A stretch of DNA of 61,360 bases from an uncultured Paracoccus sp. (GTDB lineage Bacteria; Pseudomonadota; Alphaproteobacteria; Rhodobacterales; Rhodobacteraceae): the NCBI GenBank assembly GCA_934533075.1, contig CAKTBJ010000014.1, positions 1-61,360 of the forward strand, given 5' to 3'. This document shows positions 5,372 through 46,446 of the stretch, piece by piece. The position numbers and the translations under genes were made by a program. Each line of letters opens with the position of its first letter. Within the stretch, counting starts at the first letter, position 1. The notes under the pieces were generated by a model, which was not told the origin of the DNA, ran no database searches, and saw only the letters and a program-made list of their open reading frames with translations.

Positions 5372-5800
5372 GTGACGGAGAAAGAGGGCGATGTTCTTCA
5401 TGCCAGCTGCGTGCTGGTCGGCGATTGCGGGGTGCTGGTGCTGGGCGCCTCGGGCACGGGCAAGTCCACGCTGGCGCTGGCGCTGATGGGCATGGGCGCG
5501 TCTCTGGTGGCCGACGACCGCACGCGGGTATGGACCGCCGGGGGGCGGTTATGGGCCGAGGCGCCGGCGACGATTCGCGGCCGGATCGAGGCGCGCGGCA
5601 TCGGGCTGCTGGGGGCCGATGCGGTGGGGCCGGCGACGGTCGGGCTGGTCGTCGACCTGGACCGGCAGGAGGGCGAGCGGCTGCCGCCGATGCGGCAGGT
5701 GGAGGTGCTGGGCGTGGCGCTGCCGCTGGTGCTGGGACCGCTGCATCCGGGGCTGGCGCCGGGCGTCCGGCAGATGGCGCTGTCCGGGCGGCTCGCTTGA
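5372..5800 (+). CDS. hprK: HPr kinase/phosphorylase, short alphaproteobacterial type
   Basis: The protein has 142 residues and corresponds to the catalytic C-terminal domain only, as is usual in alphaproteobacteria. The P-loop LGASGTGKSTLA is at about residues 25-36, followed by SLVADDR and the IRGRIEARGIGLL block that includes the family signature region. It phosphorylates HPr on its regulatory serine. The GTG start is fixed by a perfect AGGAGG at 5357-5362, nine bases upstream. It leads a co-directional set hprK-rapZ-EIIA-HPr. Confidence 0.94.
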   Translation: MTEKEGDVLHASCVLVGDCGVLVLGASGTGKSTLALALMGMGASLVADDRTRVWTAGGRLWAEAPATIRGRIEARGIGLLGADAVGPATVGLVVDLDRQEGERLPPMRQVEVLGVALPLVLGPLHPGLAPGVRQMALSGRLA

Positions 5801-5860
5801 CGTTAGGGTAGGGCGGGAATCGAGCGATAACATGCGTCTGACAGGAAAGGACATGACGAC

Positions 5861-6820
5861 ATGACCGAGGCGGATGCCACCCCTGCCCCGCCGCCTTCCG
5901 CTGCGGAACTCGCGGCGCAGCGCGTGGTGCTGGTCACCGGCCCGTCGGGTGCCGGGCGCTCGACCGCGATCCATGTGCTGGAGGATCTGGGCTTCGAGGC
6001 CATCGACAACCTGCCGCTGTCGCTGGTGCCGCGGCTGCTGGACGGGCCGGTGCGCGGCGTGCCGCTGGCGCTGGGGCTGGACGCGCGCAACCGCGACTTT
6101 TCGGCCTCGGGGCTGATCGCGCTGATCGACCATCTGGTGGAACGTCCTGAAATCGCGCTGGAAACCCTGTATCTGGACTGCGCGCCCGACCAGATCGTGC
6201 GCCGCTATTCCGAAACCCGCCGCCGTCACCCGCTGGCGCCGGAGGATGATCCGCTGTCGGGCGTGCTGGCCGAGCGCAACCTGATGGAGCCGATCCGCGT
6301 CCGCGCCGACGTGCTGATCGACACGACCGAAACCACCCCCCACAATCTGAAGGCCGAACTGACCCGCTGGTTCGGGCGGGCGCCGGACCATGCCATGACC
6401 GTCTCGGTCCAGTCGTTTTCCTACAAGCGCGGCACCCCGCGCGGCCTCGACATCATGTTCGACACGCGCTTCCTGGCCAATCCGCACTGGGTGGCCGAAT
6501 TGCGCCCGCTGGACGGCCGCGACCCGCGCGTGCAGGACTATGTGAAGGCCGATCCGCGCTTTGCCGAATTCATGCGCCGGATCGAGGATCTGCTGCTGTT
6601 TTTGCTGCCCGCCCATCGCGAGGAAGGCAAATCCCATCTCGCCATCGGCATCGGCTGCACCGGCGGGCAACACCGTTCCGTCACAATCGCGGAAATTCTG
6701 TCGCAATCGCTTGCACAAGCCGGGTGGCCCGTGTCTAAGAGGCACAGGGAACTGGAACGCCGCAACGCCGCGCTGCCGACCCCCGTGGCCGGGGAAAGGT
6801 TGGGGCCGGATCGGGTCTGA
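5861..6820 (+). CDS. rapZ: RNase adapter / nucleotide-binding protein RapZ
   Basis: The protein has 319 residues, close to the family norm of about 285-300 with a longer N terminus. Walker A is [12 protein letters not shown] at about residues 25-36. The C-terminal domain has the conserved [20 protein letters not shown] and [11 protein letters not shown] blocks. In enterobacteria RapZ guides RNase E to a small RNA controlling glucosamine-6-phosphate synthase; the alphaproteobacterial role is less clear, but the gene is regularly kept with the PTS-Ntr genes as here. AGGAAAGGA at 5843-5851 supports the ATG at 5861. Confidence 0.95.
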
Positions 6821-6835
6821 AATGGATTGGCTGCA

Positions 6836-7396
6836 TTGATCGGCATCGTCATTGTCGCTCACGGGGGCCTTGCCCCGGAATATCTGTCCGCGGTCGAGCA
6901 TGTCGTCGGCCCGCAGGACCGAATGCGCGCCATCGCCATCCAGCCCGGCCACGACCGCGCCGAGAAACAGGCCGAGATTTGCCGCGCCGCCGATTCCGTC
7001 GATGCCGGCGACGGCGTGGTGGTGGTGACGGACCTGTTCGGCGGCTCGCCTTCCAACCTGTCGCTGCTGGCCTGTTCGCAGAAGAACCGCGCGATCCTCT
7101 ACGGTGCCAACCTGCCGATGCTGGTAAAACTGGCGAAATCCCGCGACCTTACCGTGACCGAAGCCGTAGCTGCCGCCCGCGATGCCGGGCGGCGTTACAT
7201 TAACAGCCTCGACATCTCCGGCGAGGACGGGCGCCTCGGCGCCTCCGGTGCCGCCAGCCCGGCGCCGCTGCCGCCCTGCGCGGTGCAGCCGATCCGCCCC
7301 GCCGACGAGACCCCGCGCCGCCAGCCCGGCAAGCTGGCCAACCTGGCCGGCAAGCGCCCGCGCCCTCCGCGCGGCGCGTTGAAGACGGCGCCCTGA
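6836..7396 (+). CDS. PTS EIIA component, mannose family (regulatory PTS), with C-terminal extension
   Basis: The first 130 or so residues are a mannose-type EIIA domain: the phosphorylatable His is in IVAHGGLA (His9), and VTDLFGGSPSNLSL is the other conserved block. No EIIB or EIIC genes follow, so it belongs to the regulatory, non-transporting PTS of alphaproteobacteria. I place the start at TTG 6836 because homologues begin IGIVIVAHGG; an in-frame TTG at 6827 adds three residues. Unusual: about 50 further residues rich in Pro, Ala, Arg and Lys follow the domain (PAPLPP, ADETPRRQPG, GKRPRPPRG). HPr follows after 8 bases. Confidence 0.88.
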   Translation: MIGIVIVAHGGLAPEYLSAVEHVVGPQDRMRAIAIQPGHDRAEKQAEICRAADSVDAGDGVVVVTDLFGGSPSNLSLLACSQKNRAILYGANLPMLVKLAKSRDLTVTEAVAAARDAGRRYINSLDISGEDGRLGASGAASPAPLPPCAVQPIRPADETPRRQPGKLANLAGKRPRPPRGALKTAP

Positions 7397-38419: not shown

Positions 38420-38530
38420 CTTCGCTCCTCGCAGGCTGCGCGGGGGCAGCCTAGCCAGCCCCGCCCCCGGCATCCAGAGCAATTCGCCGGGCTTGCCCCC
38501 GGCCGCGTTCCCGGCTAGCGTGGCCGCATT

Positions 38531-38620
38531 ACTCGTTGGGGTGCCCCCTGGGGCTGAGAGGCGGATGCCGACCCATCGAACCTGATCCGGTTAGCACCGG
38601 CGGAGGGAACGGGTAGCCTG
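38531..38620 (+). promoter_or_regulatory. TPP riboswitch (THI element)
   Basis: The conserved core is plain: GGGGCTGAGAGGCGGATGCC in the first half and ACCTGATCCGGTTAGCACC followed by GGCGGAGGGAACGG in the second. It sits about 65 bases before thiD and senses thiamin pyrophosphate. I see no obvious terminator stem between it and thiD, so control of translation initiation is the more likely mode. Confidence 0.96.
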
Positions 38621-38684
38621 AATACACGGCCTTCATGCCGTGCGCATGCCCCCAAACCCATCCGTCGGTCGAAATGGGGGCGAC

Positions 38685-43932: not shown

Positions 43933-44603
43933 GCACCCCCAATTACGGCCGCAGCTTCGCCCTGTGGCGCGGTGCCTGTCCCGAGCCGTGGAACGCCTAT
44001 ACCCGCCACCCCTTCCTCAAGGGGCTGCGGGACGGCACCCTGCCCCGCCCCGCCTTCCTGGCCTATCTGCGGCAGGACTATATCTTCCTGATGCATTTCT
44101 CGCGCGCCTGGTCTTTGGCCGTGGTCAAGGCCGGCACCCTGGCCGAGATGCAGGCCGCCAGCGCCACCGTCCACGCGCTGCTGCATTTCGAGATGGCGCT
44201 GCATGTCGGCATCTGCGAGGCGGCGGGCATCAGCCACGCCGATCTGGAGGCGACCGAGGAGGCGCCCGAGAACCTCGCCTATACCCGCTATGTGCTGGAG
44301 GCGGGCTATTCCGGCGATTTCCTAGACCTGCTGGCGGCGCTGGCGCCCTGCGTGCTGGGCTATGGCGAGATCGGCGCGCGGCTGCTGGCCGAGGCCGGCG
44401 ATACGCCCTATCGCGACTGGATCGCGACCTATGGCGGCGCGGAATACCAGCAGCTTTGCCGCGACACCGGCGCGCTGATCGACCGCGCGGTGGCGGACCG
44501 GCTGGGACCGGCGCCCGAAAGCCTGCCGCGCTGGCAGGGGCTTTGCCGGCGCTTCGCCACCGCGACCCGGCTGGAAGCGGCGTTCTGGGGTCTCGGCCGG
44601 TGA
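43929..44603 (+). CDS. tenA: Aminopyrimidine aminohydrolase (TenA)
   Basis: The protein has 224 residues and an all-helical TenA fold. RQDYIFLMHFSRAWSLAV, FEMALHVGICEAAG and the active-site Cys in LAPCVLGYGEIG are conserved. It hydrolyses 4-amino-5-aminomethyl-2-methylpyrimidine to HMP in thiamin salvage, which fits the neighbouring ThiYXZ importer. GTG start overlapping the thiY stop. Confidence 0.93.
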   Translation: MSTPNYGRSFALWRGACPEPWNAYTRHPFLKGLRDGTLPRPAFLAYLRQDYIFLMHFSRAWSLAVVKAGTLAEMQAASATVHALLHFEMALHVGICEAAGISHADLEATEEAPENLAYTRYVLEAGYSGDFLDLLAALAPCVLGYGEIGARLLAEAGDTPYRDWIATYGGAEYQQLCRDTGALIDRAVADRLGPAPESLPRWQGLCRRFATATRLEAAFWGLGR

Positions 44604-45295
44604 TCCTGTCGGGACAGGTGCGCGTCGATGGGCGGGCGCTGTTCCCGCCCTTGCGGCTGGCGCTGGCGCCGGGCCGGTGGACGGCGCTGCTGGGACCCTC
44701 GGGCGTGGGCAAGTCCACGCTGCTGCGCCTGTTCGCCGGCCTGCCCGTCGGCGGCAGTTTCGAGGGCCGGATCGAGAACCCGCAGCCGGTGGCGCTGATG
44801 GCGCAGGACCCCGGCCTGCTGCCCTGGCTGACCGCGCGCCGGAACGCGGCGCTGGGCGCAAGGCTGCGCGGGCAGCGGGCGGATGCGGCGCGTCTGGACG
44901 ACATCCTGGCCCGCACCGGGCTGGCCGACCACGCCGGCAAATATCCGGCGGCGCTGTCGGGCGGCCAGCGCCAGCGGGTGGCGCTGGCCCGCACGCTGAT
45001 GGAGGACCGCCCGCTGGTGCTGCTGGACGAGCCGTTCTCGGCGCTGGACGCGCGGATGCGGCTGGCCATGCAGGACCTGGCGGGAGGGCTTTTGCAGGGG
45101 CGCACGGTGCTGATGGTCACGCATGACCCGGCCGAGGCCGCGCGGCTGGCGGATCGGATTTTCGTGCTGACGGAATCCGGCCTGACCGAAGCCCCTGCCC
45201 CGCCCGTGCCGGCGCCGCGCCCGCCCGCCGATCCCAAGGTGCTGGCCTGTCAGGCCGCGCTGCTGGCCCGGCTGGTCGAGGAGGTGAGGGCATGA
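44600..45295 (+). CDS. thiZ: Thiamin-pyrimidine ABC transporter, ATP-binding protein
   Basis: The protein has 231 residues. Walker A LLGPSGVGKSTLL, signature [14 protein letters not shown], Walker B VLLDEPFSAL and the His switch VTHDPAEA are complete. It powers ThiX. GTG start overlaps the tenA stop. Unusually, thiX does not follow at once: the TGA overlaps the ATG of a small ORF. Confidence 0.93.
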   Translation: MILSGQVRVDGRALFPPLRLALAPGRWTALLGPSGVGKSTLLRLFAGLPVGGSFEGRIENPQPVALMAQDPGLLPWLTARRNAALGARLRGQRADAARLDDILARTGLADHAGKYPAALSGGQRQRVALARTLMEDRPLVLLDEPFSALDARMRLAMQDLAGGLLQGRTVLMVTHDPAEAARLADRIFVLTESGLTEAPAPPVPAPRPPADPKVLACQAALLARLVEEVRA

Positions 45296-45435
45296 GCGGC
45301 CGCACGGCGCGGCCGACTCCCGGACAGGGGAACACATGGCGGCCGCGGGTATCCTCGGCCCGCCCCGCCTGCCACGATCACGCCGACCACGATCCCGCAA
45401 GCCGTTCGACAGCCGGAAAGGAGGACGACAGATGA
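45292..45435 (+). CDS. Small ORF 1 between thiZ and thiX, 47 aa
   Basis: Its ATG overlaps the thiZ stop (ATGA at 45292-45295), and its own TGA overlaps the next ATG at 45432. The protein begins MSGRTARPTPGQ and ends DPASRSTAGKEDDR; the middle is Cys/His-rich (PACHDHADHD). A GAGGAGGTGAGGG purine run inside the end of thiZ can serve as ribosome-binding site. No family is recognised. The C terminus resembles that of small ORF 2 (NPADRSPAGGEKYR). It may be a real microprotein or a by-product of tandem duplication. Confidence 0.45.
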   Translation: MSGRTARPTPGQGNTWRPRVSSARPACHDHADHDPASRSTAGKEDDR

Positions 45436-45581
45436 ACCGCATCCCGCCCTTTGCCCCCGCCGCCACCGGCCCGGCGCCGTCTCATGGCACATCTTGCCTG
45501 CATCACGTCTCCACCCGCCACCCTCACCCCGGCGGCAACCCGGCGGACCGCTCGCCGGCCGGAGGGGAGAAATACAGATGA
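45432..45581 (+). CDS. Small ORF 2 between thiZ and thiX, 49 aa
   Basis: A strong AAAGGAGGA lies eight bases before the ATG. The protein begins MNRIPPFAPAATGP and has SCLHHVSTRHPHPGG in the middle, again with one Cys and several His. The TGA overlaps the ATG of small ORF 3. The first codons resemble those of small ORF 3 (MSRIPP) and, more loosely, of thiX (MNRALAPLAATAG). No homologue is known to me. Confidence 0.48.
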   Translation: MNRIPPFAPAATGPAPSHGTSCLHHVSTRHPHPGGNPADRSPAGGEKYR

Positions 45582-45712
45582 GCCGCATCCCGCCCCCTCC
45601 GGCCAGCGCCAGCGAACCGCCACCCTCCCGGAGCGCAGCCTGCCCCATCGCCATCCGCCGCACCCACGGACCCGCGACCCGGCCGATGCCCGAGCAGAGG
45701 CGCCGCCGATGA
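45578..45712 (+). CDS. Small ORF 3 between thiZ and thiX, 44 aa
   Basis: A GGAGGGGAG run precedes the ATG by nine bases. The protein begins MSRIPPPPASASEP, has one Cys (SAACPIAIRRTHGP) and ends in PEQRRRR. Its TGA overlaps the ATG of thiX at 45709. The C terminus differs from those of small ORFs 1 and 2. Confidence 0.45.
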   Translation: MSRIPPPPASASEPPPSRSAACPIAIRRTHGPATRPMPEQRRRR

Positions 45713-46446
45713 ACCGCGCCCTCGCCCCCCTCGCCGCGACCGCCGGCTTCCTGCTGCTGTGGCAGGGGCTTGTCCTCGCGACCGGCCTGCCGCCCTTCCT
45801 GCTGCCCGGCCCGCGCGCCGTGGCCGAGGCGCTGCTGACCCATCGCGACGTGCTGGCCCGCGCCGTGCTGCGCACCTCGACCGAGATCCTCGCCGGCTTT
45901 GCGCTGGGCGCCGGCACCGGCGCGGTGCTGGCGGTGCTGATGGCCTCCTCGCGCCGGCTGGCGGCGGGGCTGCGCCCGGTGCTGCTGCTGTCGCAGGTCA
46001 TCCCGACCTTTGCGCTGGCGCCGATCCTGACGCTGTGGCTGGGCTATGGCATGGCGCCGAAGATCGTCGTGGCGGCGCTGATCTGCTTTTTCCCGGTCGC
46101 CTCGGGCTTTTTCGACGGGCTGATGCGCACGGCGCCGGCCTGCCTCGACCTGGCGCAGACGATGGGCGCCGGGCATTGGCGGGTGATGCGCCATATCCGC
46201 ATCCCCGCGGCGCTGCCGATGCTGGGCAGCGGGCTGAAGCTGGCGGCGGTCTATGCGCCGGTGGGCGCGGTGATCGGGGAATGGGTCGGCGGCTCGGAAG
46301 GGCTGGGCGCGGTGATGATCCATGCCAACGGCCGCATGCGGATCGACCTCAGCTTTGCGGCGCTGGCGCTGGTGACGCTGATCGCGCTGGGCTTTCACGC
46401 GCTGGTCAGCCGGGCAGTGGCGCGGGGATTCGCGCGCTTTGCCTGA
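45709..46446 (+). CDS. thiX: Thiamin-pyrimidine ABC transporter, permease
   Basis: The protein has 245 residues and about six TM helices. The EAA-type cytoplasmic loop is QTMGAGHWRVMRHIRIPAALP. LSQVIPTFALAPILTLWLGYG and IGEWVGGSEGLGAVMIHANG are typical of the SsuC/ThiX family. It forms the membrane pore for the ThiY ligand. It ends three bases before the convergent Lrp gene. Confidence 0.93.
   Translation: MNRALAPLAATAGFLLLWQGLVLATGLPPFLLPGPRAVAEALLTHRDVLARAVLRTSTEILAGFALGAGTGAVLAVLMASSRRLAAGLRPVLLLSQVIPTFALAPILTLWLGYGMAPKIVVAALICFFPVASGFFDGLMRTAPACLDLAQTMGAGHWRVMRHIRIPAALPMLGSGLKLAAVYAPVGAVIGEWVGGSEGLGAVMIHANGRMRIDLSFAALALVTLIALGFHALVSRAVARGFARFA

Follow-up and report, generated by a model that had tools for sequence, protein, structure and literature searches.

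Three short open reading frames between thiZ and thiX of a Paracoccus thi operon: a probable translational bridge across a lineage-specific insertion

Why should three short open reading frames (sORFs) stand between the ATPase gene and the permease gene of one transporter, in an operon whose genes are mostly joined by four-base overlaps? The question arises in a window of 61,360 nt, the whole stretch of DNA that was analysed, from an uncultured Paracoccus sp.; all features given here lie on its forward (+) strand. The thi operon of the window has the order thiD-thiO-thiS-thiG-thiE-thiF-thiY-tenA-thiZ-thiX and is headed by a TPP riboswitch (38527..38625; Rfam RF00059, 71.9 bits, E 7.5e-13); ThiG, ThiF, TenA, the ABC ATPase and the permease were confirmed by Pfam. 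The initial annotation described the operon as joined throughout by four-base overlaps, which is right for most joints: of those checked from thiO/thiS to tenA/thiZ, all are -4 overlaps except thiS/thiG, where the genes are separated by a 3-nt gap. The GTG start of thiZ (44600..45295, ABC transporter ATPase; PF00005; 76% to P. zhejiangensis thiZ) sits on the tenA stop, and its own stop lies in the ATGA that opens sORF1. The gene thiX (45709..46446) encodes an intact ABC transporter permease of 245 amino acids (PF00528, BPD_transp_1; 84% to P. siganidrum).

Between these two genes lies an insert of 413 nt flanked by two ATGAs (45296..45708; 417 nt with one ATGA). It is C-rich and T-poor and is made of three related units of 140, 146 and 131 nt, measured from start to start, which carry sORF1 (45292..45435, 47 codons), sORF2 (45432..45581, 49 codons) and sORF3 (45578..45712, 44 codons, containing PPPP and PPP). 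Each sORF has ATGA at both ends, and the coordinates, lengths and overlaps first reported for them proved exact: all four joints of thiZ-sORF1-sORF2-sORF3-thiX are ATGA. The MNRIPP and MSRIPP starts of sORF2 and sORF3, the similar ends of sORF1 and sORF2, and the one Cys and at least one His in each sORF are likewise present. A ribosome-binding site had been proposed for each sORF, and in an anti-Shine-Dalgarno (anti-SD) scan of 45240-45712 the three strongest sites indeed precede the three ATGs, with peaks at about 45278, 45417 and 45558. The strongest (45278..45286, about -12.4 to -12.9 kcal/mol) belongs to sORF1 and lies inside thiZ, the second (45417..45425, about -11.5 to -11.9 kcal/mol) belongs to sORF2 and the third (45558..45566, -10.0 kcal/mol) to sORF3; the next-best site reaches just -6.5 kcal/mol, and the SD before thiX is weak (-5.8 kcal/mol). 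All SD pairing scans and shuffles were done with a 16S 3' end that we take to be the anti-SD sequence.

Comparison with relatives confirms that the permease gene is to be expected directly after thiZ. The thiX start overlaps the thiZ stop by four bases in 50 of the 58 fetched loci having both genes, and the annotation of P. zhejiangensis places thiZ at 5589-6296 and thiX at 6293-7036. The other eight loci (L004, L012, L016, L029, L051, L071, L077, L078) have small shifts, a broken or distant thiZ or, in L016, a 25-nt insert bridged by a 10-codon ORF. In a wider survey of 143 thiZ/thiX pairs, in which some species occur twice, the overlap measures 4 nt in 121, the genes are no more than 10 nt apart in 9, and 13 are spaced; nine of the spaced pairs hold a tenA-like gene, three have spacers of 11-25 nt, and the last is the window. 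Two side observations concern these loci: the tenA-like gene between thiZ and thiX (L148, L154, L155, L157, L160, L161, L164, L183, L196) is a second, distant one (27-30% identity) that only some members of the family have, and thiZ of L029 (P. mutanolyticus) and L012 and thiF of L077 (P. cavernae) are interrupted by apparent frameshifts, perhaps sequencing errors.

The closest ThiX proteins of the protein catalogue (88% and 87% identity) have an N-terminus much like that of the window's ThiX, therefore 45709 is the native thiX start. The insert DNA gave short matches only against the fetched thi loci of relatives and against plasmids; among genomes, matches were found in 4 of 8 and in 23 of 125, every one shorter than 75 nt. 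An exact 30-nt pattern from the insert had no match in viral contigs, no second copy of the insert was seen within the 61-kb window, and a 20-nt junction motif, with at most one mismatch, occurred in 0 of 394 family genomes, a set that does not include the host genome beyond the window. The 417-nt insertion is lineage-specific and absent from the relatives examined.

The simplest account of such an insert is a neutral one: T-poor DNA of intergenic type where chance produced the chain or let it persist, with thiX initiating independently. Several data agree with it. The initial annotation regarded the three open frames as striking, but the insert holds only 8.7% T, therefore open frames are cheap in it; its internal stops in the three forward frames are two TGAs, both within ATGA, with no TAA or TAG, and 19% of all 417-nt windows of the whole sequence, on both strands, are as stop-poor in three frames. 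The presence of Cys and His in all three sORFs has a chance of 6% in shuffled frames (Cys 10%, His 64%). A linked chain with ATG links appeared in 565 of 40,000 dinucleotide shuffles with the flanks fixed (1.4%) and one with any NTG start in 1,384 of 40,000 (3.5%). When the length of the shuffled insert was free by one base and in-frame extensions were counted, 38% of the shuffles were coupled and 26% bridged. Three-link ATG chains also occur in 1.34 Mb of strands from the loci of 57 relatives, in three rows representing two sites, and the ATGA chain alone was accordingly set aside as proof.

What chance does not supply is the chain together with both internal SDs; the chain alone is weak evidence. 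Among 150,000 shuffles, 5,554 held a complete chain, 167 of these had at least one internal anti-SD site of -10 kcal/mol or lower (a cut-off derived from the weaker observed internal site), and only one had both. Should one internal joint be a copy of the other, 167/150,000 would be the fairer figure, and the SD evidence may be one event. Survival by drift was simulated from an intact chain with 20% of the sites redrawn and 4 indels: the three-link ATG chain persisted in 1.3% of the runs, though some complete chain remained in about 20-22%.

The units themselves are diverged relatives of one another, as judged from their alignments. The DNA of sORF2 and sORF3 aligns over most of its length, with a score of 71 that none of 1000 shuffles (mean 35) reached, and sORF1 and sORF2 have 67 ungapped nt at the 3' end in common (p 0.01); the sORF1/sORF3 alignment is within chance for DNA (p 0.5) and reaches p 0.04 for protein. 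The 5' 60 nt of sORF2 resemble the start of thiX, a resemblance bettered by just 0.14% of 2817 ATGA starts; the start of sORF3 resembles it better than all but 1.7% of the ATGA starts, and that of sORF1 does not. These matches make it likely, though they do not prove, that the units arose by tandem duplication of initiation regions. Duplication of a long piece of thiX was ruled out, the resemblance being confined to the 5' end. Tandem Repeats Finder detected no array in the insert because the units are too diverged.

We consider it probable that the three-sORF chain is a translational bridge, on which ribosomes that have finished thiZ reach thiX by successive termination-reinitiation, making dispensable peptides on the way. 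In this scheme, a 417-nt insertion would have split the original -4 (ATGA) overlap of thiZ and thiX. Each of the three diverged tandem units would provide a ribosome-binding site and a short ORF that starts at one ATGA and ends on the next, so that a ribosome ending thiZ could restart immediately on sORF1, then on sORF2, sORF3 and finally thiX. Fresh 30S loading at the strong SDs would aid termination-reinitiation, and the peptides would be by-products. The sORFs would thus be translated and thiX would depend on them; the benefit, for which selection may have maintained the chain, would be that the coupling of ThiX to ThiZ is kept despite the size of the gap. A second benefit may be that the C-rich RNA stays covered by ribosomes, hindering Rho. 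The C-over-G excess of the insert is 0.161, which is in the top 0.4% of windows and a value that not one of the operon's 1311 sense-strand windows reaches; if untranslated, the insert would be a plausible Rho target.

How much thiX needs such a path depends on how far coupling reaches across untranslated RNA. Termination-reinitiation at overlaps is an established process, with variable help from the SD in the systems described in the cited part of PMC6728339. In six tested pairs, gaps of about 20 nt nearly abolished it (PMC10666635), while contrary work cited in the same source reports coupling over 150-850 nt with about a 1.4-fold loss per 100 nt. Therefore, an untranslated gap of 413 nt should weaken or end the coupling of thiX, and the sORF chain restores a path of -4 joints to it; coupling over 150-850 nt would make the bridge less necessary. 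It also speaks against the bridge that the chain is carried by one lineage only.

Further evidence came from inserts at other joints of the operon. Bridged inserts in P. luteus (L043) and P. sanguinis (L034), both at thiG/thiE, and in Paracoccus sp. DMF-8 (L012) at thiE/thiF prompted a survey; in these three and in the thiZ/thiX insert of L016, one ORF runs from ATGA to ATGA or GTGA. The survey comprised 179 sequences (56 plus 2 earlier loci, 120 new regions and the window), each examined at up to nine joints; species present more than once were filtered out by insert sequence, and the inserts come from one operon and partly share their ancestry. All 25 distinct inserts of 28-600 nt, that of the window among them, keep translation continuous, where 11.5 would be expected from shuffles whose length was changed by -1, 0 or +1. 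Thirteen of the 25 are bridged (12 by -4 joints and 1 by a -1 joint) and 12 form in-frame N-terminal extensions starting on ATGA; where the ATGA is no more than the start of the gene, such an extension is to be expected as well. The product of chances is 1.5e-9 over the 25 inserts and 5e-5 for 14 clusters, in which one member was kept per likely common element, assigned by eye. None of the 25 has a length divisible by 3, the class that no single ORF can join ((2/3)^25 = 4e-5; 3e-3 for the 14 clusters). Without the window and the three prompting inserts, 21 of 21 remain continuous.

The limits of 28 and 600 nt bear on how this count is to be read. The lower one was chosen after seeing the data, which include unbridged short spacers: a -4 bridge, the only kind of joint that was counted below 28 nt, is missing from 18 of the 22 spacers of 10-27 nt at thiF/thiY and from 6 of the 9 at other joints. 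Inserts above 600 nt (11 rows) were excluded, as each of them overlaps a stretch that matches tenA or another thi protein. The apparent thiE/thiF insert of L077 was dropped, since its thiF is split by a frameshift; this thiF starts on ATGA. The window chain is the sole multi-link bridge among the 13. In the bridged inserts, the anti-SD pairing before the downstream start beats that of shuffled insert letters (Fisher p 0.0013 combined; singly 0.04 to 0.42). At tenA/thiZ of L153, a 535-nt insert holds one bridging ORF of about 180 codons, rich in Arg, Ala and Pro and running from GTGA to GTGA; L153 carries another bridge at thiY/tenA.

Many of the survey inserts contain a palindromic repeat that is scattered through Paracoccus genomes (AAATATCC...GGGGGTCCGGGGG...) and is read either as a bridge ORF or as an N-terminal extension of ThiF; at thiG/thiE and thiE/thiF it is carried by L034, L035, L043, L044, L047, L052, L212, L214 and others. 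The first repeat pattern has 1 to 40 copies per genome in 9 of 9 genomes searched, with 0 for the reversed control, and the second has 1 to 12 copies per genome in 9 of 9. Six thiE/thiF inserts give rise to a ThiF N-terminal extension with GGFTPPDPRG and two more to a variant of it. The insert of the window is without this repeat.

The initial annotation had offered translational relays as one of two possible roles of the sORFs, and this reading, in the sense of continuity rather than of regulated ThiX output, gains support from the placement of the SDs, the kinship of the units and the uninterrupted series of continuous inserts. The same series, together with the single shuffle in 150,000 that matched the chain and both SDs, renders a neutral insert unlikely, even though, as would suit such an insert, the fold of the whole region is no more stable than that of shuffles (z -0.22) and sORF1 and sORF3 look non-coding in their codon statistics.

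These statistics bear also on the other role proposed at the outset, that of microproteins for thiamin transport; spelled out, the sORFs would be three paralogous microproteins serving the transport of thiamin or a precursor. Points in favour are the SD before each sORF, the common MxRIPP start of sORF2 and sORF3 with one Cys aligned between them, protein alignments of the units that exceed shuffles, and the presence of sORF2 as a called protein in the catalogue (P0001). The codon signal is mixed. In a codon model built from the window's genes, real fragments have a median of +0.59 bits per codon; sORF1 scores -0.67, sORF2 -0.25 and sORF3 -0.58, which places sORF1 and sORF3 below the 5% quantile (-0.47) and sORF2 between the 5% and 25% quantiles. 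Own shuffles beat the score of sORF2 in 0.1% of cases, that of sORF3 in 4% and that of sORF1 in 25%; sORF2 also outscores the other five frames of its stretch, whereas sORF1 and sORF3 are each outscored by another frame. The frame of sORF2 therefore has a mild coding-like signal, which sORF1 and sORF3 are without.

No peptide family emerged from the searches. A profile of the three sORFs, run against 5.77 billion proteins with 10 candidates scored, found sORF2 itself and nothing else; Pfam had no match for the sORFs, and tblastn with sORF2 found no homologue in plasmids. In 154 of the 394 family genomes the profile had a match with E no higher than 0.1; of these, the DNA of L137, L138 and L140 and the ORFs of L137 were inspected; the match in L137 (E 1.4e-5 in its own genome) lies partly antisense to and partly beside another ORF and was taken as chance. 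Differences between the units have no third-position excess, with codon-position counts of 10, 10 and 6 for sORF2/3 and 11, 5 and 6 for sORF1/2, counted over the alignment positions that stay in codon register (86 of 107 and 67 of 67, respectively). Thus neither homologues nor purifying selection on the peptide, the marks of a conserved microprotein family, were found in these searches and counts. By eye, the peptides are hydrophilic and have no membrane segment, and duplication at the DNA level accounts for their kinship. We therefore judge a transport role of the peptides to be very unlikely.

A regulatory attenuator is a further alternative: stalling within sORF3, at its PPPP and PPP, or opening of a hairpin at the sORF2/sORF3 joint would tune thiX via EF-P, amino-acid supply or Rho. 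The C-richness of the insert fits this idea, as does the interplay of EF-P and Rho at polyproline in E. coli described in PMC5021804. The possible hairpin (45557..45604) has an 11-bp stem, drawn by eye, that pairs the sORF3 SD with the sORF3 start and would mask this SD; its local fold has a z of -3.45 and a fraction of 0.005 in 200 shuffles. A hairpin at every joint was rejected, as one is seen at 1 of the 4 insert joints. The native thiE/thiF joint also folds locally (z -2.82), and 3 of 52 thiZ/thiX joints of relatives have a more stable fold. Proline is a consequence of C-richness, and the operon already has its TPP riboswitch. Rfam gave sub-threshold matches only on the insert region, where structure beyond shuffles amounts to the single local hairpin and does not point to a known structured RNA; a search of 45200-45800 yielded no promoter or terminator. 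Attenuation at this site is accordingly quite improbable. An assembly artefact is hardly credible: the insert is seen in no other lineage, as an artefact would be, but the frames are exact, and the catalogue has both sORF2 (as one sequence) and ThiX on 3 contigs each, though these need not stem from independent assemblies.

We return to the translational bridge and the systems that it resembles. Termination-reinitiation at ATGA overlaps, as treated in the cited parts of Huber 2019 (PMC6728339) and Huber 2023 (PMC10666635), has in common with the window the -4 overlaps, an SD in the upstream ORF and the joining of subunits of one complex. In the systems described there one overlap joins two genes, whereas in the window a chain of three short ORFs lies between them. 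Starts and stops that overlap or lie within a few nt of each other are found here at four ATGA joints, and the SD lies within the upstream ORF, as is usual but not essential, with a weak one at the fourth joint, before thiX. Upstream-ORF coupling and bicistronic designs, as outlined in the review PMC12548453, likewise use an ORF to bring ribosomes and not to make a protein; the ORFs of the window differ in that they are inside an operon, three in series, and bridge an insertion. The REP-like palindromic repeats of Paracoccus also occupy coupled thi joints, where they form bridges or in-frame extensions, but are not part of the window insert. We found no report of short-ORF chains bridging operon joints in the open-access literature.

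The nearest parallel are the mycobacterial MIRUs. They occur in tandem arrays and are shorter than the units of the window, which measure 131-146 nt, are strongly diverged, belong to another phylum and have no second locus in the window or, as far as the junction motif shows, in the 394 family genomes. The likeness is a repeat unit placed at a start codon, with a small ORF inside it that joins the gene at -4 spacing (Supply 1997, via the 2025 review PMC12548453); according to the cited part of this review, insertion of a MIRU likely spares gene expression by means of the -4 coupling. The window insert, too, lies at a start codon and has its internal ORFs coupled at -4. By analogy, the bridge would work like mycobacterial MIRUs, and identity with MIRUs is not claimed. 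One might go further and suppose that Alphaproteobacteria have a MIRU-like class of their own, in which inserts and mobile palindromic repeats in -4 joints persist only with an ORF bridge or an in-frame extension; the window would then hold an array of three units belonging to a family not known otherwise; such a family would duplicate initiation regions, and the number of its units could thereby change the output of ThiX. We regard this extension as rather doubtful, but put it forward tentatively.

The chain in the window is a ready construct for asking how far reinitiating ribosomes can be relayed, and it cautions against assuming that short ORFs of this kind encode useful proteins. Its wider value lies in a rule: in this survey, longer inserts at coupled joints of the thi operon were seen only in a form that preserves coupling. 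If the overlaps were mere compactness, inserts would fall in any frame; in the surveyed thi operons of Paracoccus relatives, continuous translation is broken by none of the 25 distinct inserts of 28-600 nt. Nature has thus carried out an experiment on why bacterial genes overlap by ATGA.
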